Assembly (NCBI GenBank): GCA_018401015.1
Contig: JAGYLP010000001.1
Span: forward strand, 270,463-310,022
Length of the DNA stretch: 39,560 bases
Direction: 5' to 3'
DNA from: Bacteroidales bacterium
GTDB lineage: Bacteria > Bacteroidota > Bacteroidia > Bacteroidales > M50B96
The notes under the pieces were generated by a model, which was not told the DNA's origin, did no database searches, and saw only the letters and a program-made list of their open reading frames with translations. Positions within the stretch are counted from its first letter, which is position 1; each line of letters opens with the position of its first letter. Both the position numbers and the translations under genes were made by a program. This document shows positions 26,099 through 39,560 of this stretch, piece after piece.

Positions 26099-28612
26099 TC
26101 AGTGTATAACTTGAAAGTTAATAGACTGGGTCTTTCGATTATGGATTCTCAAAATGTAGTTGCCGGAGGGAATGCCGCTGGTGTTTATGGACACACGGCT
26201 GCTAAAGGCCTGATTCGATAAAATCAGTTCGCCGGACGATGAGTAGATGGCTATTTTGCTTCGCGGTTCTACACCTGTAACAACTAATTCGCGATTAGCC
26301 GGATTTGGATACACTTGAATGGCGTTTACATCACTTTGATCGATGGGCAGTAAAGGTGGAAGGGGTTCGAGATTGTGAGTTCGGGTGGTGTCGAAAGCAA
26401 AAATGCGGGCTATCCGATTTCGTCCTGTATCGTTGTAGGCGGTGAAATTTCCTCCAATTATAAGCGATCCGTCGTTAAAGAGGCATAAAGCATTTACTCG
26501 TTGGTTGGGGCCACTACCTCCGTTAAAAGTCACATCGACACTTCCATTTGGATGTAATCGGCCTAAATTACCGGTATAGTGTCCATTGAATTCCTGAACA
26601 AGGTCTCCTCCAAATAGTATTTTTCCATCGGGTTGAATCGTAATGGCCGTGATGGATGCATAGTAAGAGCCGCTAAGGCCAGTCCCGGTCTCAAAGCTTA
26701 GGTCGAAAGGTCCATTGGATTGAATCCGGGCAATGTCTTTAATGCTTTGACTACCGGAATAAGTGAATCTGCCGGCGATGATGAGTTGCTCGTTGGGCAG
26801 GATGTCGGCAGTATAAACTTTTCCGGAAAGTGACCCTCCGGGGTTATAGGCGAAATCGAGCGAACCGTCGAGGTTGATTCGAGCAATGCCATTCCTTGGC
26901 GTACCTTGGTAGTGACTAAAGTTTCCTATCGCTATTATTTTTCCGCTCATTAAGGGTATTAATTTGGAAACAGAACCAGAAAAGAACAGGTTGGGTAAAT
27001 AAGCATCATCGTTGGTTCCATGTTCATTTAGTTTAACCAGGATAGTATTGGTTTGGTTAAAAAGGCCAAGAAAAATAGCTCCGGAGTTTGTAAAACAGGA
27101 TACGGTGGGTTTGCCGATGGGGTCGAGGGTTGCATGAAAACTCGTGTCGATTGTTCCATCTTGATGCAACTGAACCAAAAAGGGTGTTTCTGAGGGCATG
27201 TTCAGGTTATTTTGCATGCCACCAAGCAAAAAGCTTCCATTTTTCTTAGCAGCGACCAGGGATACTTCATTTATATCATTCGATTGAAATAAATCAGCTA
27301 CGAAGCTTGTGTCGCTGTTTCCATTCGAATCAATTACGCTGATCCCGGGAATAATCTGATGGTTGTATAAGTCGAAATTTCCGGCAATCAAGGCTTTGTT
27401 ATTCGGAAGAGGTAGGATGGAGGTTACATCCTGGTTGGCTCCAAAAGAAGGATTGAACTCAGTGTCTAACAGGCCGCTAGTTTTGAATTTGCAGATATGA
27501 TTTACCGATCGGTCCTGCATGTACCTGAAATCTCCAACAGTTAGGATGTCGTTGTTGTCGAAAAAACAGCAATCGTACAGGGTGTTTTGGTGGTAAGTGC
27601 AAGCTGAAAAAGTTTCGTCGATACTGCCATCGGAGTGAAATCGAGCGAGACCTTTGATGGCAACGTCGTTATACTTTTTAAACCGTCCGCATAGATAAAT
27701 TTGCTGATTCCCATCAATCTTTATGGATATTCCTGTTTCATAGCCATAGTTTGTTATGCCACTGCCAATTGGGAAACTAAGGTCGATACTGCCATTGGCA
27801 TGAAGTCGGCCAACCTGATAAGCTAACTCTTGGATGTGGAAGAATAGGGCGACAATTTTACCATCGGCTTGTTCGTCGAGCGAAACGACCCGATAGTTAT
27901 TTAGCGAAAACTGAAAAGCTGTATCGAGGCTTCCATTAGGGTTGAGGCGTGCCAGGTAGTTTCTGGGTTCACCGTTGTAGTGGCTAAAATTCCCCCAAAT
28001 TAGCATTTGAGCATTTGCCAACACTTTTAATCCTGAAAGGGCGCCATCGGGACCTGTTCCCGATTGGAAGGAGGTGTCGATGATTCCGGAGGAGAGGGTT
28101 CGAACCAGATAATTTTTAGCTACTCCATTAACCTGGGTAAAGCCTCCTGCTAGCAGTATTTTGCCATCGGTTAGAGGTTTTATTGTGCTAATAAGCGCTC
28201 CCGTATTCGTTTCGACTTGGTAACTGGTATCGAGGCTCCCGTCCTGATTCATTCTCCAAATGGTTTTATTGGCGGAATCGTAAATGCCCGAAGCAAGTAT
28301 TTTCCCATCAGCCTGAACATTCATTCGGTAAATGTGATCTCCGGTTGTTAGGGGAGACTGGAAGCTGCTGTCGTATTTGCCATCGAGATGAATCCGGGCA
28401 ATGGACTGGCTTGTATTTCCATTGTACCGATCGAGATAACCTGAAATATATATTTTCTCTCCGGCTATCAGGCAGGTGGTTGGACGATCGTCGCATCCGT
28501 CGCCGGAGGCATAACCTTGATCTTGCGGGTTAAAATTTACATCGAGACGACCATCTTGAGCAAAAGAAGGGAAGTTGGTGATAAGTAGAATGATGAACAA
28601 AAATTTTCTCAT
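26099..28612 (-). CDS. Secreted delta-60 repeat protein with T9SS sorting domain
   Basis: After a signal peptide (MRKFLFIILLITNFPSFAQ) the 837-residue protein holds 14 delta-60 units, each around a DGSLDTSF-type motif (DGRLDVNF first, NGSVDVTF last), spaced about 50 residues apart, with DGKILxxG strands between. Fourteen units would suit two seven-bladed propellers; that is inference. The last 80 residues (IQVYPNPANRELVV ... GIPSGNYILRIHN) are a type A T9SS sorting domain, so the protein is carried across the outer membrane and attached or released there. Its role is unknown; such proteins may bind surfaces or ligands. It diverges from the large kelch/beta-helix gene across 514 bp. Confidence 0.9.
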   Translation of the reverse strand: MRKFLFIILLITNFPSFAQDGRLDVNFNPQDQGYASGDGCDDRPTTCLIAGEKIYISGYLDRYNGNTSQSIARIHLDGKYDSSFQSPLTTGDHIYRMNVQADGKILASGIYDSANKTIWRMNQDGSLDTSYQVETNTGALISTIKPLTDGKILLAGGFTQVNGVAKNYLVRTLSSGIIDTSFQSGTGPDGALSGLKVLANAQMLIWGNFSHYNGEPRNYLARLNPNGSLDTAFQFSLNNYRVVSLDEQADGKIVALFFHIQELAYQVGRLHANGSIDLSFPIGSGITNYGYETGISIKIDGNQQIYLCGRFKKYNDVAIKGLARFHSDGSIDETFSACTYHQNTLYDCCFFDNNDILTVGDFRYMQDRSVNHICKFKTSGLLDTEFNPSFGANQDVTSILPLPNNKALIAGNFDLYNHQIIPGISVIDSNGNSDTSFVADLFQSNDINEVSLVAAKKNGSFLLGGMQNNLNMPSETPFLVQLHQDGTIDTSFHATLDPIGKPTVSCFTNSGAIFLGLFNQTNTILVKLNEHGTNDDAYLPNLFFSGSVSKLIPLMSGKIIAIGNFSHYQGTPRNGIARINLDGSLDFAYNPGGSLSGKVYTADILPNEQLIIAGRFTYSGSQSIKDIARIQSNGPFDLSFETGTGLSGSYYASITAITIQPDGKILFGGDLVQEFNGHYTGNLGRLHPNGSVDVTFNGGSGPNQRVNALCLFNDGSLIIGGNFTAYNDTGRNRIARIFAFDTTRTHNLEPLPPLLPIDQSDVNAIQVYPNPANRELVVTGVEPRSKIAIYSSSGELILSNQAFSSRVSINTSGIPSGNYILRIHNRKTQSINFQVIH

Positions 28613-29126: not shown

Positions 29127-32100
29127 ATGAAACACGCTACCAATTTTGTTAACCGGGTATGGACTGCTTGTCTTTCCTTGTTCGTTTTTTTATTTATTGC
29201 GAATGGTTTGTATTCGCAAGTCATTTTTAATCAAACTTCTACGGCTGATTTTCAGGGAGGATATTGGGATCAAGTAGTGGTTGGGTCGAACCAGGTAAGT
29301 TTGCCGCAAATGGCGACCTCTATCAATCCCTGGGTCACGAATACTGTTCTTCCTCAAACCCTTACCGGTCATCAGGTGTGTACCTATCGGAATGCTTTTG
29401 TCTACTCCATTGGGGGTAATAATGGAAGTTCCGATTTATCGACAATTTACCGAGCCTCTGTAACGAGCACTGGGAATGGAGCCTGGTCGAATGTAGGTTC
29501 GATTCCACTTCCTTTGCGCGATGCCGCCGTGGTTGTGGGGACCAGTAAGATTTACCTGATAGGCGGACGCAGCAACGGAGTTCCTCAATCGGCTATTTAT
29601 TATGCCGATATAGCCTCCGATGGTTCGCTAGGATCTTGGGATTCCAGCTCGGTAAGTTTACCTGTTAGCCTTTGGGGCCATCAGGCTGAATACGTGAATG
29701 GATCGATTTACATTTTGGGAGGAACTACCGGAACTTTAATTAGCGATGCTGTTTCATCGGTTTATTGTTTGAGTCTGGATGCCAACAAACATCCGGTTTC
29801 CATTTCTTCCACTGTTTCCTTGCCAGGGAACCGGGTCAATTTCGCCACATCGGTCTGGAACCAACATCTTATCGTTATGGGAGGTGAAGACGATTTAGGC
29901 GTTAAGTCGGCAGCTGTGTGGTATGCCAACTCACAGGCTAACGGGCAATTGAGTTCTTGGCAAGCGCTCAGCTCACTGCCTGTTGCCATTAGTCATCATA
30001 GCTCCACTTCGTCGTATAATTTGTTGACATGTATTTCCGGTGAGTACCTCGATGGTGGCAGCCCAAGCTTGTCGAATCAGGTGTACTATGCCATGATGGG
30101 AAACTTTCCCAGCATTTCGTGGTCGCAAGCCAGTAATCAGTTATATGATTATACCAAGAATGGACAGGCTTATGCCGGGCCTGGTTTTATAGCTTATCTG
30201 GGAGGCGAGAATTTGTCGGGAACGCCAACGATTAATTCCCGGTATGCTCCACTTGGCCTTTCCACGTCTTTCCTTACTCAGGGGAATTTTATTTCCAATC
30301 CTTTTTATGAGTTAGGTGATTTGCGGCAGATTCAAAGTTTGAATTTTGTCTTGAGCCAGGCGGCCAACAGTGAGTTTTATTATCGTGTGGCTGGAGCGGA
30401 TGCGTTATGGTCCGATTGGGTCCATAGCACCACGAATCCGGTAACGGTGAATCAGGAGAAACAATACATTCAATACCGAATCGATTTGCGTGGAACGACA
30501 GCCAACAGCGCCGTATGCAGCGAGGTGGTGTTGAGTATTCAAGGGACTCAATTAAGCGGTAATTTGAATGCGATGGATACCTTGCACATTGAAGACAGTC
30601 CGTTCTGGGCAACTGCCAACATCAGTTTTACGGCCGGAAGTCATTACATTGAGCCGGGAGTCACGATTCTTTTCTCTCCGAATACCGGTTTGGAAATTGG
30701 TCAGGCGAGCATGCAATTTGCCGGCACTTCGGAACATCCCATTACCTTAACCTATTATTCGGCCGAGGCAGGTCAATGGAACGGGGTGTATTTTACCACT
30801 CAAAGCGACAACGGAGTATCGTCGTCGATGCATTATGTTACGATAGAAAAAGCGGGATACGGAACGAACGATGCTAATTTGCGCTGTGTCGACACCCAAG
30901 AGCCCTTGCTGAGTAATTGCACCTTGCGTTTGGCTGAGGGGCATGGATTAAGGTTGAGTAATTCACCGATAACCATTGAGGAATCGCTCCTGGAGGACAA
31001 TACCGATGCCGGTATTCATCTCACAAACTCAAATCCAAATATGATTGCCACCACCATAACCGGCAACGGAGTGGCCGGGATTGTGTATACCGATAATGTA
31101 TCCAACCCTAATTTTGCCGGTGTTCTTGTGGAGGATAATTTATATGGATTATATCATCCAACTCCCAACATGAGTATTTCTCCATTGAGTGGCAATATTA
31201 CCATTGAGAATAATATTTTCAATGGCCATGCAATTCCCGGGGGTACAATTGAATCTAATGTTACCTGGAATAATCCTTCGCTGGATTTCTTTGTGTTGGG
31301 AACGATTACCATAAAAAAATACTACTCCCTGTGTCGCTTAACCATTGAGCCGGGGAATACCATTCGTTTCAGTGAAGGTTCACGTTTGCATGTGGGCGAT
31401 GTTTCCAACGGATATTATCCCGGCGAGCTGTATGCCATCGGATCGGCAGATAGTCTCATTACTTTTAGTTCGCAAAGCGGACAAAGTGGTGGTTGGGAGG
31501 GAATCCTTTTCGGAGCTCCCAGTCAGGCTATGAGTGCATCTTCATTCATGAATTACTGCATAGTGGAGAAAGCAAACTCGTATTTGCTTCGTACACAGGA
31601 TACGCAGCAGCCTTCGATCCAGAATTCTATTTTCAGGGAATCGGCTCAACACGGTGTTGTGTGTCATCAGTCCATGACTCCATTGGCAGGATTAACTTTT
31701 CAGAATAATGCAGGTTACGGATTGTTATTTACTGCACCAAAGTATATCCATACCCAGCTTGGAGCGTTAACTTTTTCGGGAAATGCCTTCGACGGAGTGG
31801 TTACCGAGGGAGGAACAATCGATGTAAGCCGTAATTGGCCAAATACAGGCAACCCATACCTAATTTTGGGCGACCTGGTAGTAAGTGGCTATTACGACCG
31901 GTATAGGCTGACTATTGATCCGGGCTTAACCCTCTACTTCACACCAGGTTCGGAGATGTTAGTAGGCTCGTCTAATAGTTATTATTGCGGAGAAATTTAT
32001 GCTGTTGGAACGCCCGATAGCTTAATTACGTTTGCTCCTTACAACGGTCAGGTTGGTGGATGGGAAGGAGTTACTTTCGAATCATCCACGACTAGTTTTA

Positions 32101-34280
32101 GTGCGGTAACGTATATGGAGTATTGTGTTATTGAGAAAGGGAATAATCATAACTTAAAATCTATCAATACGTATTATCCTGAAATGAATCATTGCATTCT
32201 TCGCGACGGTAATGATTTGGGAATGAGTTTGTCTCATTATGATCAGATTATTAAAAATACCCTTATTCAGGATAATGCCGGACGAGCTATTTATGTGAAT
32301 CATCCGAAAAATATTCCTTATCAGCTCGATAGTCTTAGCTTAATCAATAATGGAACAGATGCTTTGGTTTGCGAGGGAGGCCTGATCGACGTTGATCGCA
32401 CCTGGCCCTATTTCGGTGCCGATTATCATTTTCTGAACACGGTAACTATCCGGCATTATTACGATCGTTGCCGATTGAGCATTGAACCTGGTTGCACTCT
32501 TCGCTTTGCTGCCGGAAGTCAGCTGAAGGTAGGTGAGAGTACGAACGGATATTACAGCGGCGAGGTTTATGCAGCCGGTACTTTGGAGTCACCTATTGTA
32601 TTTACTGCCATTAACGATAGTTTGGGTGGATGGGATGGCATTTACTTCCCATCGGAAAGTAACACTTTTAGTGCTGTTTCAGAATTGATTCATTGCGTGG
32701 TTGAAAAGGCAGCCGATAAAAATATCGAATGCATATCTACCACCAACCCAACGATTACGAATAGCCTTATCCGACTGGCTCCTCATGGTATCTATGCCAG
32801 TAATTCCAGCCCGGATATTCTGAGTTCCCGCATTTCCAACAATCTTACCGGTATTTACCTTACCGGTAGCTCGAATCCGGTTTTTGGCAATACACCCGAA
32901 ACAGGAAATGATATTTTCGATAATGCCAACTACAATGTTTATAACAATACGAGTCAAAATATTTTTGCTAATCATACCTTCTGGGGCCATATCGATAGTG
33001 TATCCATTAGTCAGCACAATTTTGATTATTTCGATGAGACCTCTAAAGGAAAAGTGTGGGTAGGTCCTTGGGTTGATTTGCCCCAAGTGAATTATGATAC
33101 CATTACGCACTTAGGCATGGTTACTTATGGCGAAGATGGCACAAACCTATTTTATAATTCCGAAGTGAATTTATGGGGAGCTGCCGATAGTGCTACTACT
33201 CAAACCGATGGGCAGGGTGCTTTTGTTTTTGAGGATTTGGTTCGCGATAGTTACAAGTATAATCTGGTAAGTAATTCGGCCAATTGGGGCGGGGTTAATG
33301 CAACGGATGCATTATGGGTGCTCCGGCATTTTACTCACCTCGATACCTTGCCCGATAGGATGCAAACGGCTGCCGATGTGAACGCAAGTAAAACTGTGAA
33401 TGGAACCGATGCGATGCTGATTATGCAACGGTATACGCAACTTATCAATTCATTCCCGGCAGGAGATTACCTCTATTACCTGGCCGATTTCAGTATTGGA
33501 GAAGATACTTTCTATCAGGATTTACGATTTATCTGGATTGGCGATGTGAATGGCTCTTATACTCCTTCCGGAAGTAAAAGTCTTTATTTAGCTGAATCGG
33601 ATAAAGAGCTTTTAGTTGAAGCCGGATCGGAAATTTCCGTGCCGGTTCGCATCAGCTCACCCGCTTCGCTGGGAGCTGTTTCACTTCAGTTTAGCTATCC
33701 GGTGCATCAGTTGGAATGGCAGTCGTGTCAGTTTGGAGTGGAGAATCAACCAGTCGTTGTAAACGAGGAAAATGGAAGCTTGCGTTTTGCCTGGACGAAT
33801 ACTGAACCAATCGATTTGGAAGGTGACGATGTATTGCTCTCTCTTCAGTTTAAAGTGTTGCCGGGTACAGAAGGTGAACCTATCCTGCTTACCCTCGATG
33901 CAAATTCGGAGTTGGCCAATTCGGAAGCTGAAGTGCTTTATGTCGATTTGGAAATGCCATCCTTACGTTATGCGTGGGAAGTATCGGTCGATGAGTGGAA
34001 TGCCGACGGAATCGCTTCGTGTGTTGCATATCCCAATCCGACTCGAGATAGGTTGAATTTTAGCTTCGACTTGCACCAGGAAGGAGAGGTAGAATTGGCA
34101 ATTTATAATGCTCTCGGACAAGAGCTTGTTGTTCAATCCTTGGGCAAACGGGTTGCCGGCGAGCATCAAGCCGAAGTAAATCTGGATCACCTGAGCGAAG
34201 GGATTTATACCTACCGCCTCCTGCTTATTCATGCTAACGAATCTTCGTATCAAACGGAAAGTTTCATAATCTGTCGGTAG
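29127..34280 (+). CDS. Giant T9SS-exported surface protein: kelch, beta-helix, dockerin-like and cohesin-like parts
   Basis: The 1717-residue protein has a long signal peptide (to about residue 31). Residues about 75-375 hold six kelch-like repeats (YLIGGRSNG, YILGGTTG). A beta-sandwich-like part with YYRVAGADALWSDWV follows. Residues about 480-1330 look like a right-handed beta-helix, with three 190-residue units starting at 31281, 31851 and 32418 (each YY-x5-LxIxPG) after a weaker first unit. Residues 1385-1475 are dockerin-like: GGVNATDALWVLRHF, then DVNASKTVNGTD (1417-1428), then GDVNGSY. Residues about 1484-1612 resemble one cohesin domain. The end (CVAYPNPTRDRLNF ... LSEGIYTYRLLL) is a type A T9SS sorting domain. 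It is probably cotranscribed with the next gene, 45 bp on. Confidence 0.87.
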   Translation: MKHATNFVNRVWTACLSLFVFLFIANGLYSQVIFNQTSTADFQGGYWDQVVVGSNQVSLPQMATSINPWVTNTVLPQTLTGHQVCTYRNAFVYSIGGNNGSSDLSTIYRASVTSTGNGAWSNVGSIPLPLRDAAVVVGTSKIYLIGGRSNGVPQSAIYYADIASDGSLGSWDSSSVSLPVSLWGHQAEYVNGSIYILGGTTGTLISDAVSSVYCLSLDANKHPVSISSTVSLPGNRVNFATSVWNQHLIVMGGEDDLGVKSAAVWYANSQANGQLSSWQALSSLPVAISHHSSTSSYNLLTCISGEYLDGGSPSLSNQVYYAMMGNFPSISWSQASNQLYDYTKNGQAYAGPGFIAYLGGENLSGTPTINSRYAPLGLSTSFLTQGNFISNPFYELGDLRQIQSLNFVLSQAANSEFYYRVAGADALWSDWVHSTTNPVTVNQEKQYIQYRIDLRGTTANSAVCSEVVLSIQGTQLSGNLNAMDTLHIEDSPFWATANISFTAGSHYIEPGVTILFSPNTGLEIGQASMQFAGTSEHPITLTYYSAEAGQWNGVYFTTQSDNGVSSSMHYVTIEKAGYGTNDANLRCVDTQEPLLSNCTLRLAEGHGLRLSNSPITIEESLLEDNTDAGIHLTNSNPNMIATTITGNGVAGIVYTDNVSNPNFAGVLVEDNLYGLYHPTPNMSISPLSGNITIENNIFNGHAIPGGTIESNVTWNNPSLDFFVLGTITIKKYYSLCRLTIEPGNTIRFSEGSRLHVGDVSNGYYPGELYAIGSADSLITFSSQSGQSGGWEGILFGAPSQAMSASSFMNYCIVEKANSYLLRTQDTQQPSIQNSIFRESAQHGVVCHQSMTPLAGLTFQNNAGYGLLFTAPKYIHTQLGALTFSGNAFDGVVTEGGTIDVSRNWPNTGNPYLILGDLVVSGYYDRYRLTIDPGLTLYFTPGSEMLVGSSNSYYCGEIYAVGTPDSLITFAPYNGQVGGWEGVTFESSTTSFSAVTYMEYCVIEKGNNHNLKSINTYYPEMNHCILRDGNDLGMSLSHYDQIIKNTLIQDNAGRAIYVNHPKNIPYQLDSLSLINNGTDALVCEGGLIDVDRTWPYFGADYHFLNTVTIRHYYDRCRLSIEPGCTLRFAAGSQLKVGESTNGYYSGEVYAAGTLESPIVFTAINDSLGGWDGIYFPSESNTFSAVSELIHCVVEKAADKNIECISTTNPTITNSLIRLAPHGIYASNSSPDILSSRISNNLTGIYLTGSSNPVFGNTPETGNDIFDNANYNVYNNTSQNIFANHTFWGHIDSVSISQHNFDYFDETSKGKVWVGPWVDLPQVNYDTITHLGMVTYGEDGTNLFYNSEVNLWGAADSATTQTDGQGAFVFEDLVRDSYKYNLVSNSANWGGVNATDALWVLRHFTHLDTLPDRMQTAADVNASKTVNGTDAMLIMQRYTQLINSFPAGDYLYYLADFSIGEDTFYQDLRFIWIGDVNGSYTPSGSKSLYLAESDKELLVEAGSEISVPVRISSPASLGAVSLQFSYPVHQLEWQSCQFGVENQPVVVNEENGSLRFAWTNTEPIDLEGDDVLLSLQFKVLPGTEGEPILLTLDANSELANSEAEVLYVDLEMPSLRYAWEVSVDEWNADGIASCVAYPNPTRDRLNFSFDLHQEGEVELAIYNALGQELVVQSLGKRVAGEHQAEVNLDHLSEGIYTYRLLLIHANESSYQTESFIICR

Positions 34281-34325
34281 TGGATCAACTTACCTCAAGT
34301 AGTTCTAACCTTTAAACAGACGATT

Positions 34326-37300
34326 ATGAAAAAGATATTCATCCTTATCCTCCTGCTGACTGGCCTTGGGCTGGTTCAGCAAGGAAATTCACAGGTAATA
34401 GTAACTTCGGTTCAAAATCAGACTATCTGCGAAGGGGAACTGTCGGTTCCAATTCTGCTGAATAGTAACGATGCGCTTTCGGCAATTTCCTTAGCGCTCG
34501 AATTCGATTCTTCTACCTTAAATTATCTTGCCTACACCAACGAGCATCCAGCCCTCAATACTGGTTTGTTCCTCGTTCACACTGCCGGTAATACGGTGTA
34601 TATCTCCTGGGCTAACGTTGCCTCGGCTCAATTCGGGAACGATACACTTTTAACCTTAGTGTTCGATGCTTTGCATGGGAGCTCAACTTTGCAGTGGGAT
34701 ACGGAAACTCCGGGGAATTGCGAGTTCAGTAATGTGTCGGGGATTGCAATGCCTGCAAGCTTTTCCAATGCAGTCATCACGGTTCAGAAAGCACCCTATT
34801 TTATAACGACGCCTCAATCGCAGTTAGCTATCGTGGGTCAGGCGAGCAGCCTGGCTGTGCAAGCCGGCGGAACGAGTCTGACTTATCAATGGGAAGTTAG
34901 TTCCGATTTGGGAGCCAGCTGGATGCCCCTCAGCAATGCTTTCCCATACAGCGGAACGACTTCGGCGACCCTGTCGATTGCCGAAGCTAGCTATGCTATG
35001 GAATTGAACTGGTATCGATGTCGTATCGAAGGGGTTTGCCCACCGGTGCTGTATTCCGATCCATTAAGTATCGACGTAGAAGAACCTCCGCAGGAGATTT
35101 TAGTATGGACCACTCCTTTGGCTGAATGCCCCGGCATGCATTTGAGCCCGGTGTATGTGCATGAATTTTACGGAGTAGGAGCATTTTCCATGGTGCTTGC
35201 TTTTGATGACAACTTGCTCGATTTTATCGAATTGCAAGATCTTGATCCCGACCTGGCGAATGGATTATTCAGCGTTCATGCTACGCAAGGCCAGTTATTT
35301 CTTTCCTGGGCTTCTTCCGATACGCTCAACTTATCGGCATCCGATAGCTTACTATTTACGATTCATTGGAGTTCGGTCGATGGTGGCTCAACGAACCTGG
35401 CCTTCCAGAATCAGCTTGCAGGAAACTGCGAAATTAGTGGCACCGGTGGGAATCCTATTCCGGCACAATTTCAGGGATCGACCCTAACCGTAAGGCAGCC
35501 TCCGCTTATCACAAGTCAACCTCAGAATGTAAACCAACCTGAAGGAAGCACGGCTCATTTCTCCATTCAAGCCATTGGCCATAGCTTGACCTACCAATGG
35601 GAACTGAGTACCGATGGAGGTACAACGTTTTCTCCCCTCTTCAATAATGCCCTTTATTCAGGAGTTACTACGAGCAATTTAAACGTTATTCAACCCGATT
35701 TCACCTATCATACGTATCAGTTTCGCTGTGTTGTTGAAGGAACCTGTGCTCCAGTTGCCATATCTAACCCGGTCATGTTGAGTATTGAACTTCCTCCCCA
35801 AGTGATTCATGTCGATGCGGGCGATTTTACCGGTTGCCCGGATACGTTTTTAATTCCGATAACGGTGGCGCAATTTAATTCCATATCAGCCCTGTCTTTG
35901 GCTCTTAACTTCGATCCGACCAAAATGGAATTTATCGGGATGGAAAACCTTCATCCTAATTTGAACAACGGACTTTCTGCTGCCAATGCAATCAATGGTC
36001 AGGTACTTCTTACATGGGCTTCAGCAAACGAAACAAGCCTTCCAAATGGGGAAGGAGTGCTCTGCGATTTGCAGTTTCTCGGATTAAGTGGCGGAACGAT
36101 TTCGCTAACCTGGGATCAATCTACTCCCGGGTATGGCGAATTTACCAATTCCGATACCCTTATTGCTTCGCTTGCCACTGCCGGTACCGCGCTGATTTAT
36201 GGAGTCCCAACAATTGGTGCTCATCCGCTCTCGATTACCCGAACCGCGGGCGAGAACGCTACTTTTTCGGTACAGGCGAGCGGCACAGGACTAGAATATA
36301 CCTGGCAACAAAGCACCGACGGAGGGATTAATTGGCAGAACTTAGGAACCTTGGGGCACACCCTTTCTCTTTCGCAGGTGTCGTTGTCGATGAGTGGGAA
36401 TTTGTATCGCTGTGTTGTGAGTGGAACCTGCAATCCTCCAGTTGTTTCGGGGGTTGCCACTTTAATCGTCAATCCACCCACGCAAGTAATCGACCTTAGT
36501 TTGCCTAATATGAATAATCTCTGCGCACAGCAGTTATTCATCCCGCTCACCGTTCAAAATTTTAATCAAGTGGGAGCTTTCTCCCTGGTAATCGAATACG
36601 ATAGTTTATCGCTCGATTTTCAAGGACTTAGCAATGCGCATCAAGCCCTGAATAGTGGTTTGTTGTATGCTCATCAGGTGCCCGGAAAAGTGTTTGTTGC
36701 TTGGGCTTCCACTCAGGCTGTTTCGGTTGGGAATGGTGTTTTATTCGATTTTCTGTTCGTTTCAGGAGGGGGTAGTACAGCCCTCAATTGGGATACTAGT
36801 ACTCCTGGGAATTGCGAAATAGTCGATGCCAACGGGAATCCTATTTTGCTAACGTTTACCAATGGATCCATTACGGTGTCGGCTCAACCTCTGAACGTTT
36901 TAGCCGGTCCAGACTTTACGCTCGTGCCGGGAATGTCGGCGGTGCTGCAAGGATCGGTAAGCGGTGGCACACCACCTTATATCATTAACTGGACCCCGAT
37001 TCAGGGTTTATCCAATGCAAGCTTGCTACAACCTGAGGCAAATCCGCTTCAAACAACCATGTACACCCTCGAAGTGGTCGATGTCAGCAATTGCACCAGT
37101 TCCGACGATGCATGGGTCTATGTCGAAACGATTCCTTCTACCGGATGGATGTGGGCTCGGCAACAGGGCGGAGAGCTGCAAGATGAAACCCTTGCGCTAA
37201 CCGCTGATGCAGCCGGAAACTCCTACGGAAGCGGTTATTTCTCCGGCGATACTTGCTCCATTGGAAACATATCTCTCTTGAATAGCGGAAATACTTCCCT

Positions 37301-39422
37301 CTTCCTGAGTAAATACGATCCTTATGGCGAAGTGCTTTGGGCTATAGCTTCCGAAAATGAAGGCTGGACTGAAGGTCGAGCTTTAGCTGCCGACGATTCC
37401 GGGAATGTTTATTTGGCCGGAAATTTTCAGCATACTTTTCTGGAGTTAGGAGGACAAATGACCGATGGCTATGGTTGGACCGACGTATTTATTGCCAAAA
37501 TTAGTCCGCAGGGAAGCTTGATATGGTTGCAGTCCTTTGGTGGAGTAAGCCAGGATCAGGCAGTCGATGTGGCGATTGGACCCGACGGCAATGTCTTGCT
37601 CACCGGATTTTTCATGAGCAGTACCATCAGCTTTGGTTCTCATCAGCTTAGTAATACGAATACTAATTTTGCCGATATCTTCCTGGTTAAGTTAAATACC
37701 GGAGGAGATGTGCTTTGGGCTAAGAAAATGGGAGGCACCGAATGGGACGAACCAGCCGATTTGCACATAACTGCGAATAACGACATTTTGCTTACCGGCT
37801 ATTTTGTAAGTGCTAATCTCAGTTTAACAGGAATGAATCTGGTTCATTCTTCGGGAACACAACCCAATGCTTTTTTAGCTCGATTCGATTCCCAGGGGAA
37901 TGCCCTATGGGCCAAGAAACCGGCTATCAGTCAGTTTAACTATGGCGAGGCCTTAACCACTGATTCTATTGGAAATATTTACTGGACGGGCCAGTTTGGC
38001 GATGCTAGTGTTCAATTAGGGGATTCCATTTTTAGTTCGGCTGGCGGAAGCGATCTCTTCTTATCCAAGTTGGCCGCCAACGGAGATTATTTGTGGTCGG
38101 TACAAGCTGCCGGTAGTGGACAGGAATCCTCGGCCGGATTACAGTCTCGTAATACCAACGAATTGGTGTGGGTCGGGAATTTCAACAGTACCCTGCTGAG
38201 TATTGGAAACACGAGTTATGGTAGCGCCGGTTTTTACGATTTCTTTCTCGTAACCCTCAGTGCTGGTGGGAATGTACTCACTGGCACCACGGTTGGGAAT
38301 ACCTTGGAGGAGCGTGTGCATGCTGTCTCCGGCGATGTTCTGGGGAATGTTTTGGTAGCGGGTAGTTATTTGAGCGAGAGTTTAGCCTTCGGGAATTCAA
38401 CCTTACAACAGGTTTTTCCTGGTGAGAAGAATGGATTCCTGGCAAAGTTTGGAGAAACGGCGCCAACTCTTTCGGTACAAGCCAACTGGAGTCATCCGCT
38501 GTGCTACGACAGCAACGATGGATATATTGCTCTTACTGTGGTCCAGGGGCTGCCGCCTTTCACCTATCAGTGGAGTCATGGGGCAACCGAAGCTTCTTTG
38601 GAGAATCTATCGGCAGGAACCTATTCTGTAAGCGTTTACGATGTTAATCAGGATATCTGGACTCAAAGCTTTGAGTTAATTAGTCCTCTCGCCCTAGAAG
38701 GAGGTTTGGTGGTTCAAGCACCAAGCTGTGGAACCTGTCCCGATGGAAGTATTTTTGCGACACCGGCTGGAGGGACTCCTCCTTATCAGCTTGTATGGTC
38801 GACCGGAGCCACCGGATTAGCCATCGAAAATTTATTACCCGGATGGTATTCATTGAGCCTTACCGATGCTAATAATTGCATGGTTTTCTTGGAGGTTGAG
38901 TTACCGGGAATACTCCCAACCGATACCCAGTACATTGATTTACCTGCAGGTTGGTCTTATTTTTCCACCTATCTCGAACCCAATTCACCCAACATTGCAG
39001 ATGTTTTGCAACCCGTGGTGAGTTATGTAACGATTGCCAAAAGCGGAGGAGGCGGTAATTATTGGCCCCTTTACGCAATTAACACTATCGGCGACATGCA
39101 AATAGGATTTGGTTATCAGGTACACATGACCCAGGCCGCCAGTTTGCCGGTACAAGGTGAATCCGTTCAGCCTCATTTAGTTGGCATTGAGTTACCCTTA
39201 GGTTGGAGTATCCTCGGTTATTTACATGAAGAGGCTATGCTGGCCGATTCTATGTTAATTTCGATTGCACCTGCTATTGAGATTGTGAAGGACAGCAACG
39301 GCTTATCCTATTGGCCAGCGTGGAACATCAATTCCATAGGCAATTTGAAACCCGGCGAAGGCTATTTGATTAAGCTCAACCAGGCCGTTGTTTTTTATTA
39401 TCCGGAACTTAGCGGACAGTAG
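34326..39422 (+). CDS. Giant surface protein with four cohesin-like modules, Ig-like modules, propeller and SprB repeats
   Basis: The 1698-residue protein has a signal peptide (to about residue 23). Four cohesin-like modules (about 24-153, 257-390, 492-625, 720-852) share LNxGL, a W-A-(S/N) strand and mostly TPGNCE-like ends. Three Ig-like modules (157-250, 393-488, 627-716) with YQWExSTDGG and YRCxVxGTC lie between them. A PKD-like domain follows (855-933), then seven propeller repeats (about 940-1376, GNVYLAGNF type), two SprB-like repeats (1380-1530; FTYQWSHGATEASLENL) and a terminal module present twice (1536-1612, 1620-1694; LPAGWS ... YWP ... INTIG ... GFGYQV). No YPNP-type sorting domain is visible, so its export signal is unclear. 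It is probably a scaffold or adhesin on the cell surface. Confidence 0.87.
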   Translation: MKKIFILILLLTGLGLVQQGNSQVIVTSVQNQTICEGELSVPILLNSNDALSAISLALEFDSSTLNYLAYTNEHPALNTGLFLVHTAGNTVYISWANVASAQFGNDTLLTLVFDALHGSSTLQWDTETPGNCEFSNVSGIAMPASFSNAVITVQKAPYFITTPQSQLAIVGQASSLAVQAGGTSLTYQWEVSSDLGASWMPLSNAFPYSGTTSATLSIAEASYAMELNWYRCRIEGVCPPVLYSDPLSIDVEEPPQEILVWTTPLAECPGMHLSPVYVHEFYGVGAFSMVLAFDDNLLDFIELQDLDPDLANGLFSVHATQGQLFLSWASSDTLNLSASDSLLFTIHWSSVDGGSTNLAFQNQLAGNCEISGTGGNPIPAQFQGSTLTVRQPPLITSQPQNVNQPEGSTAHFSIQAIGHSLTYQWELSTDGGTTFSPLFNNALYSGVTTSNLNVIQPDFTYHTYQFRCVVEGTCAPVAISNPVMLSIELPPQVIHVDAGDFTGCPDTFLIPITVAQFNSISALSLALNFDPTKMEFIGMENLHPNLNNGLSAANAINGQVLLTWASANETSLPNGEGVLCDLQFLGLSGGTISLTWDQSTPGYGEFTNSDTLIASLATAGTALIYGVPTIGAHPLSITRTAGENATFSVQASGTGLEYTWQQSTDGGINWQNLGTLGHTLSLSQVSLSMSGNLYRCVVSGTCNPPVVSGVATLIVNPPTQVIDLSLPNMNNLCAQQLFIPLTVQNFNQVGAFSLVIEYDSLSLDFQGLSNAHQALNSGLLYAHQVPGKVFVAWASTQAVSVGNGVLFDFLFVSGGGSTALNWDTSTPGNCEIVDANGNPILLTFTNGSITVSAQPLNVLAGPDFTLVPGMSAVLQGSVSGGTPPYIINWTPIQGLSNASLLQPEANPLQTTMYTLEVVDVSNCTSSDDAWVYVETIPSTGWMWARQQGGELQDETLALTADAAGNSYGSGYFSGDTCSIGNISLLNSGNTSLFLSKYDPYGEVLWAIASENEGWTEGRALAADDSGNVYLAGNFQHTFLELGGQMTDGYGWTDVFIAKISPQGSLIWLQSFGGVSQDQAVDVAIGPDGNVLLTGFFMSSTISFGSHQLSNTNTNFADIFLVKLNTGGDVLWAKKMGGTEWDEPADLHITANNDILLTGYFVSANLSLTGMNLVHSSGTQPNAFLARFDSQGNALWAKKPAISQFNYGEALTTDSIGNIYWTGQFGDASVQLGDSIFSSAGGSDLFLSKLAANGDYLWSVQAAGSGQESSAGLQSRNTNELVWVGNFNSTLLSIGNTSYGSAGFYDFFLVTLSAGGNVLTGTTVGNTLEERVHAVSGDVLGNVLVAGSYLSESLAFGNSTLQQVFPGEKNGFLAKFGETAPTLSVQANWSHPLCYDSNDGYIALTVVQGLPPFTYQWSHGATEASLENLSAGTYSVSVYDVNQDIWTQSFELISPLALEGGLVVQAPSCGTCPDGSIFATPAGGTPPYQLVWSTGATGLAIENLLPGWYSLSLTDANNCMVFLEVELPGILPTDTQYIDLPAGWSYFSTYLEPNSPNIADVLQPVVSYVTIAKSGGGGNYWPLYAINTIGDMQIGFGYQVHMTQAASLPVQGESVQPHLVGIELPLGWSILGYLHEEAMLADSMLISIAPAIEIVKDSNGLSYWPAWNINSIGNLKPGEGYLIKLNQAVVFYYPELSGQ

Positions 39423-39457
39423 CAAGGCGGTGAATGTCGGAGCGCAGCGGGAGTGAT

Positions 39458-39560
39458 TGGTGAACGGTGTATAGTGAACGGTGAACGACGGAAGCCAGCT
39501 ACAACGAACTGCCGCGCGGCTCCCGGCGCGTGGCTTCACGAATTGCCGCGCGACTCCCGT
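39458..39560. repeat. Repeat island 3, running off the window
   Basis: After the stop of the giant gene come GTGAACGGTG words (39461-39486), then ACAACGAACTGCCGCGCGG with the hairpin arms GCCGCGC and GCGCGTGGC (39511-39534), then a second, cut-off copy GAATTGCCGCGCGACTCCCG to the window end. Core and hairpin are the same as in island 1, in the same orientation. Bases 39423-39457 show no separate feature. Confidence 0.85.

Follow-up and report, generated by a model that had tools for sequence, protein, structure and literature searches.

We analysed a 39,560-nucleotide stretch of DNA from a Bacteroidales bacterium (assembly GCA_018401015.1, contig JAGYLP010000001.1, positions 270,463 to 310,022), hereafter the window, in which two genes on the same strand and 45 bases apart encode proteins of 1717 and 1698 amino acids (aa), here named p1 and p2. 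On balance we favour the view that p1 and p2 form a two-gene surface docking system, in which a dockerin borne by a beta-sandwich of p1, with its calcium loop 1 split, takes the cohesins of p2. Because the p1-p2 cassette is conserved and the dockerins and cohesins detected by profile in this genome are confined to three loci, docking of the p1 dockerin to its neighbour is the likely prediction. The features concerned, in window coordinates, are the following.

29127..34280, plus strand: p1 (1717 aa), with signal peptide (by eye), Kelch propeller, right-handed beta-helix, sandwich with embedded dockerin, cohesin and type IX secretion system (T9SS) type A tail (Pfam and model)
33102..33272, plus strand: p1 transthyretin/CnaB-like sandwich, strands 1-5, residues 1326-1382 (model, structure comparison)
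33282..33461, plus strand: p1 dockerin core, residues 1386-1445, read as an insert between sandwich strands 5 and 6 (Pfam, profile, model, structure comparison)
33285..33308, plus strand: WGGVNATD, second half of calcium loop 1 (sequence)
33375..33410, plus strand: DVNASKTVNGTD, complete calcium loop 2 (sequence)
33468..33536, plus strand: p1 sandwich strands 6-7, residues 1448-1470 (model, structure comparison)
33540..33560, plus strand: GDVNGSY, proposed relocated first half of calcium loop 1 (sequence)
33582..33974, plus strand: p1's own cohesin, residues 1486-1616 (Pfam, profile, model)
34005..34277, plus strand: p1 T9SS type A C-terminal sorting domain, residues 1627-1717 (domain cut-offs, model)
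34326..39422, plus strand: p2 (1698 aa), with signal peptide (by eye), four cohesins alternating with immunoglobulin-like (Ig-like) domains, SBBP propeller repeat and SprB repeats; sorting tail absent in this assembly
34389..34787, plus strand: p2 cohesin 1 (profile)
35091..35495, plus strand: p2 cohesin 2 (profile)
35799..36197, plus strand: p2 cohesin 3 (profile)
36483..36881, plus strand: p2 cohesin 4 (Pfam, profile)

The p1-p2 pair is a conserved cassette. We followed it through 75 loci from titled genome records, which a search for the pattern WGG[VGA]N[AS]TDA supplied (the best 80 of its 220 places were retained); conservation of this pattern within them, being the selection criterion, proves nothing. 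Most locus titles read Bacteroidales or Bacteroidetes, and a few read differently. Among these loci are 24 distinct p1 homologues (32-47% identical where the first 1320 residues align best), and a same-strand cohesin gene follows in 23 of them; this gene encodes four cohesins in 20 loci, and the other three followers comprise two cut by the locus end and one 252-aa gene with a single cohesin. The spacing between the two genes is 6-72 bases in 22 of the 24 loci. Two cassettes are titled Alkalitalea saponilacus DSM 24412 and Natronoflexus pectinivorans DSM 24179, and one is titled Alphaproteobacteria, possibly a misnamed metagenome-assembled genome. For dockerin-cohesin proteins whose next gene is visible, a same-strand cohesin gene was found downstream in 49/84 cases and upstream in 10/59, and restriction to cohesin genes without a dockerin left 39/84 and 1/59, respectively. 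A related set occurs on two contigs titled Melioribacteraceae and Ignavibacteriales (L105 and L154), where a six-cohesin protein of ~2580 aa lies two genes past the dockerin protein.

Profile searches of the window's own genome found four dockerins and ten cohesins, all in three loci, namely the window and two further contigs (C34 and C58), and an iterated profile added the own cohesin of the C58 protein. At each of the three, a protein with sandwich, dockerin, cohesin and tail is followed by a cohesin gene, which on C34 encodes a 319-aa protein with a cohesin, a dockerin and no sorting tail. An earlier reading of the window made from the sequence alone (the sequence-only reading) had named a lack of other dockerin-like proteins in the genome among the results that together would refute docking, and the four found in all answer this point. 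Sub-cut-off Pfam dockerin or cohesin matches on three other contigs were dropped: one lies in a TonB-dependent-receptor-like protein (C78, by eye), one in a riboflavin-synthase-like open reading frame (ORF) (C56, by eye), and one is weak and below cut-off (C41). On C34, a cohesin gene beside the dockerin genes also appears to be broken into ORFs of 317, 152 and 179 aa (L012, 9424-11365), the last of which ends, by eye, like a sorting tail.

Beyond this genome, the sandwich-dockerin module is present in 21/60 related genomes, own included. Across 198 genomes of the phylum, the cohesin profile was found in 16/33 genomes with a dockerin versus 8/165 others, a comparison that leaves out four genomes whose dockerin match covers the sandwich half only (with them, 19/37 versus 5/161) and that is inflated since the profile also catches the own cohesins of dockerin proteins. 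In 14 of the 16 co-occurrence genomes the dockerin and cohesin lie, by eye, within 15 kb or in one frame. One related genome (G054, loci L082-L101) carries 26 copies of the sandwich-dockerin module, and the cargo of eight of its dockerin-profile proteins that were scanned includes C25 peptidase, lectin-like and LTD domains.

Pfam assigns Kelch repeats, a right-handed beta-helix, Dockerin_1, Cohesin and a T9SS tail to p1, along with Kelch-type epimerase/mutarotase matches that are all below cut-off; p2 exceeds the cut-off for Cohesin, Ig and SprB, and its beta-propeller repeat falls slightly under it. The sequence-only reading had described in p1 a dockerin-like segment and one cohesin-like domain, each of which passes its Pfam cut-off: Dockerin_1 (PF00404) scored 28.2 bits against 22.9 over residues 1388-1434, and Cohesin (PF00963) scored 30.1 bits against 24.1 over residues 1498-1583. 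The p2 protein reached 48.2 bits for Cohesin over its whole length, with two stretches passing singly, so that both proteins stand above the curated cut-offs for the families in question. Five p2 orthologues scored 70-94 bits with four stretches apiece, and a sixth, from Natronoflexus, scored 52.2 bits with one stretch passing.

A p2-type cohesin profile detected all four p2 modules in their own genome with E values of 1.4e-37 to 2.1e-48, these modules being themselves rows of the profile. Its matches in the PDB at E<=0.01 comprised 12 distinct sequences, 12/12 of which are cohesin or scaffoldin chains (best 1.3e-7), two of them labelled 'Endoglucanase' and counted as cohesins from their record titles. 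By profile, then, the p2 modules are cohesins, as their PDB matches are exclusively cohesin chains; the alternation of four cohesin-like with Ig-like modules noted from the sequence alone is thereby confirmed, and the possibility that they match some other fold did not materialize. An AlphaFold2 model of p1 residues 1326-1717 (392 residues; predicted local distance difference test (pLDDT) 91.5) contains a dockerin with three helices and a cohesin that aligns to the cohesins of solved cohesin-dockerin complexes over 123 residues (Z 13.8, root-mean-square deviation (rmsd) 2.2), and this predicted domain has the cohesin jelly-roll fold.

The dockerin of p1 appears in an unusual setting. A profile of p1-type modules matched solved dockerins, including 1ohz_B at 2e-6. 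A model of residues 1326-1485 (pLDDT 89.3) runs from five strands through three helices, predicted at model residues 67-77, 85-91 and 101-111, to short strands, and thus has the three-helix fold expected of a modelled dockerin. Solved dockerins align solely to model residues 62-122 (8x39_A: 59 aligned, rmsd 1.8, 27% identity, Z 8.9; 4uyp_B: 60 aligned, rmsd 1.9, Z 8.8). Solved transthyretin/CnaB-like domains align across model residues 1-146, as in 5aq0_A (79/81 residues, rmsd 2.2, Z 9.8), and the best row of the comparison is a fervidolysin domain (Z 10.8). The structural comparison prints first and last aligned residues only; we read the dockerin as an insert because about 80 residues aligned over 1-146 must skip about as many. 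The model thus suggests that the p1 dockerin sits within a transthyretin-like sandwich. Covariation over 160 sequences placed pairs across the insert (17-143, 3-141 and 35-131) among the top pairs, which fit a sandwich wrapped around the dockerin, and dockerin-internal pairs (73-107 and 62-110) are also among the strongest.

Type I dockerins are defined by two contiguous calcium loops with helices, the standard loop being D-x-N-x-D-G-x-V-N-x-x-D. The sequence-only reading had located NWGGVNATD at 33282-33308 and the second loop at 33375-33410, and both positions are exact. In 63 dockerins found by profile (63/69 hits, the other six being too short, too long or duplicate), loop 2 is complete, with D1 in 61/63, N or D at position 3 in 50/63 and D12 in 62/63. 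The Ser at position 5, which had been counted as a weak point, is the commonest residue there (29/63). Loop 1 is without its first half and begins GG-V-N, with GG in 50/63, a preceding W in 43/63 and the final D in 60/63. What had been called a degenerate loop 1 therefore has a conserved second half and systematically misses the first half alone. Behind the sandwich, the same dockerins carry G-D-V-N-G-S (D in 60/63, N or D in 53/63, S in 48/63), which has the letters of a calcium loop's first half, so that loop 1 is better read, on sequence grounds, as a putatively relocated half-loop. The p1 dockerin is a variant: it fails the two-contiguous-loop definition and reaches the curated score, and it is not filed as a standard member because loop 1 holds its second half alone in place. 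We read the p1 module as a permuted, split-loop dockerin of predicted geometry, in which the two half-loops would meet and bind calcium.

A count of the GDVN motif across the phylum supports, at the level of sequence, the relocation of the half-loop. Of the 130 Pfam dockerins included (from 132 Dockerin_1 matches at E<=1e-4 in the 198 genomes), 82 have the motif at the front only, 40 at the back only, one at both and seven at neither (Fisher p 4e-25), under a final rule, GD at the front, that is partly post hoc, as the criteria changed between rounds. After reduction to <60% identity over the first 50 residues, 59 front and 23 back cases remain, the back class deriving from 10 genomes, four of them in one family, so that independence is limited. 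By eye, the eight exceptions consist of four complete loops with another first residue, two ending in GDVK or GDIK, one cut ORF and one tailed case with a chance GD. An earlier criterion had given 75 complete loops without tail, 13 complete with tail, 37 half-loops with tail and five half-loops without; a second gave 78, 10, 28 and 0, respectively, with 14 set aside. A regular-expression count on our own profile hits, which are biased toward the tailed class, yielded 136 half-loops with tail, 11 without, four complete loops without tail, two with, and 17 unparsed.

To compare possible docking partners we correlated pairwise distances over 52 dockerin genes and their adjacent cohesin genes, with shared ancestry remaining in the signal. 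Among five chain segments, the dockerin core followed the neighbour's cohesins best (r 0.78), ahead of p1's own cohesin (0.74), the dockerin tail (0.70), the sandwich (0.69) and the sorting tail (0.34). The values were 0.54 for the core and 0.47, 0.36, 0.38 and 0.24 for the other segments, in the same order, for the 28 pairs that do not belong to the four-cohesin cassette, and 0.85, 0.79, 0.83, 0.77 and 0.56 in the 24 cassette pairs, the core thus ranking first in each set. The suggestion made from the sequence alone, that the neighbour is a scaffold, is probably right, and is supported by the conserved p1-p2 operon and by this covariation between dockerin and neighbour. Across the analysis as a whole, three alignments (A2, A4 and A5) drew on 20/43, 37/49 and 95/96 prepared sequences, respectively.

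T9SS export of p1, likewise proposed earlier, is also supported. Por_Secre_tail scored 38.9 bits against a cut-off of 27, a second sorting-domain score was 31.6 against 23 bits, and the genome encodes a PorU sortase (1139 bits); with a sorting domain over cut-off and the sortase present, p1 qualifies as T9SS type A cargo. From this tail and PorU, we expect the type IX system to export p1 and to anchor it, and the C-terminal sandwich-dockerin of p1 would dock with calcium onto the cohesins of p2. Up to four molecules of p1, or other proteins with a dockerin, could then assemble on a single p2, and the result would be a surface lattice of Kelch and beta-helix heads, which may bind glycans or other surfaces. 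Within the module, the second half of loop 1 (GGVNATD) would open the dockerin, the first half (GDVNGS) would return at the end of the sandwich, and the sandwich would hold the dockerin closed. The own cohesin of p1 could accept another dockerin and so extend the array.

Several results weigh against this reading. Foldseek, run with the sandwich-dockerin model against the PDB, returned no chain at E<=0.001 (best 2.8e-3), and the Z scores of 8.8-8.9 obtained for the dockerin are middling at best for a small helical domain. Coupling between the GDVNGSY tail and loop 1 is not above that of other segments. One of the 24 p1 homologues has no cohesin gene following, and in 35/84 dockerin-cohesin proteins no same-strand cohesin gene lies directly downstream. 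No sorting-domain match was found in p2 at E<=1, so its predicted export is unexplained. Finally, the own cohesin of p1 also tracks the cohesins of p2, and the shared ancestry of the cassette can yield such correlations. A concern already raised from the sequence, that dockerin and cohesin occur in one chain, is real: in the 75 named loci, a cohesin starts no more than 40 residues after the dockerin in 90/100 cases. The dockerin might accordingly bind the cohesin of p1 itself, either in the same chain or from one copy to the next in head-to-tail fashion, giving a p1 polymer with p2 as a separate adhesin; the covariation of own cohesin and sandwich-dockerin (r 0.83) also speaks for this. We regard this as rather unlikely, given that a separate cohesin gene is kept adjoining p1, that some dockerin proteins, such as the 319-aa protein of this genome, have no cohesin behind the dockerin, and that the correlation with the neighbour's cohesins is slightly higher for the dockerin core than for the own cohesin. 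Docking might also be absent altogether, with the cohesin-like and dockerin-like modules serving as stiff spacers and calcium clips in adhesins and the operon reflecting joint adhesin use. Modules such as Ig, Kelch and SprB are indeed abundant in both proteins, and a 2009 survey by Peer et al. reportedly covers many non-cellulosomal cohesin- and dockerin-like modules; the conserved operon and the co-occurrence of dockerins and cohesins over the 198 genomes, to which own cohesins contribute, speak against this explanation, which we hold to be improbable.

The tail itself has a competing explanation, in which GDVNGS is an unrelated conserved turn capping the sandwich and loop 1 has merely lost one calcium site. 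The unexceptional coupling of tail and loop 1 agrees with it, yet in most of the 63 dockerins the tail is spelled like the first half of a calcium loop, and the tail and a complete loop 1 hardly ever occur together; we consider a mere turn less probable, although a sizeable chance remains with it. About evenly balanced, in our estimation, are the chances that the split-loop dockerin represents a new topology, with a circular rearrangement within a transthyretin-like sandwich and a loop 1 rebuilt from the far ends of the module, serving as a T9SS-tailed clasp in a Bacteroidota surface docking network unrelated to cellulose.

The p1-p2 pair would work like a cohesin-dockerin system and is not a cellulosome. 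As in the clostridial cellulosome with its type I cohesin-dockerin pairs and scaffoldin, a multi-cohesin protein occurs with dockerin proteins whose folds or profiles match solved members, and p2, with four cohesins, corresponds to the multi-cohesin scaffoldin. The analogy drawn in the sequence-only reading fails on cargo: dockerin-bearing glycoside hydrolases are not among this genome's four dockerin proteins, in which no catalytic domain passed its Pfam cut-off, two of the four ORFs being cut by contig ends. Unlike the clostridial cellulosome, p1-p2 features predicted T9SS export, a dockerin apparently embedded in a sandwich, a putatively relocated half of loop 1 and an own cohesin behind the dockerin. 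X-dockerin dyads (XDoc, for example 2b59 and 5g5d) likewise pair a dockerin with a beta-sandwich, and XDoc chains were listed by Foldseek, but their overlay with the p1 module is poor (template modelling (TM) score ~0.25, rmsd ~13). The X module comes before the dockerin in these dyads, whereas in p1 the dockerin appears to interrupt the sandwich.

The ORF2375 dockerin and ORF2376 cohesin of Archaeoglobus fulgidus, neighbours by ORF number, form a non-cellulosomal pair with strong, specific binding according to the accessible part of the source (PMC9705933); the A. fulgidus cohesin 2xdh is among the structure or profile matches of our system. That pair is archaeal, and the same part of the source mentions neither a multi-cohesin scaffold nor a sorting tail. 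Candidatus Stygibacter (Cloacimonadota) is predicted, in the accessible part of PMC8542988, to have a cellulosome-like complex of dockerin enzymes and a large tandem-cohesin scaffoldin with a C-terminal surface-attachment domain. It resembles p1-p2 in its tandem-cohesin scaffoldin and dockerin proteins and differs in its enzyme cargo and carbohydrate-binding domains, and an embedded dockerin is not described in that part of the paper. Scaffoldin-like multi-cohesin proteins without a link to cellulose are also reported, in the accessible part of PMC9012536, from anaerobic methanotrophic (ANME) archaea, which differ in being archaeal and in having S-layer or transporter cargo. In the literature searched, with most subscription papers outside its reach, neither a four-cohesin cassette from Bacteroidota nor a dockerin of the permuted or split-loop kind came to light.

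The cassette bears on expectations for the phylum. For one Bacteroidetes strain, a paper reports finding no cohesin/dockerin scaffolds, 'as expected' in this phylum (PMC7768429), and another makes the same statement about two species that degrade cellulose (PMC6247017). In our survey, many genome records hold a conserved scaffold cassette; most of these records have Bacteroidales or Bacteroidetes in their titles, and two name DSM strains. Annotation probably misses many such systems, because in the related genome with 26 module copies 6/8 dockerin-profile proteins gave no Dockerin_1 match at E<=0.001. That the two genes have stayed adjacent in many relatives points to cellulosome-like docking outside cellulose digestion. 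If the split loop is true, it shows permutation of a two-calcium module that is held fast within a different fold, and it would offer a new orthogonal docking tag.

The missing sorting tail of p2 may mean that a repeat or the assembly has truncated the protein. The contig stops 138 bases past the end of p2, and the closest relative of p2, which does have a sorting tail, is 49% identical in the C-terminal half. A search of the genome for a continuation with the last 220 aa of an orthologue returned 34 places, none of which clearly continues p2. Among the four-cohesin genes in the named loci (n=23), 12 have a sorting tail and 11 do not, three of the 11 being cut by the locus end. Two of four tail-less four-cohesin proteins scanned end weakly dockerin-like, at 20.7 and 19.5 bits, below the Dockerin_1 cut-off, and these ends are possibly a second docking type. 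That tail-less partners, such as p2 of the window and the 319-aa cohesin-dockerin protein, are exported while bound to tailed partners strikes us as very doubtful. By eye, several tail-less p2 orthologues (L107, L113, L117, L128, L129, L136 and L162) end in another dockerin-like or calcium-loop-rich tail.

After the p2 stop, window positions 39423-39560 consist of short repeated GTGAACGGTG-like and GCGCGGCTCCCG-like sequence up to the contig end. Upstream of p1, on the opposite strand, window positions 26099-28612 encode an 837-aa protein that combines 11 DUF5122 propeller repeats with a T9SS tail.

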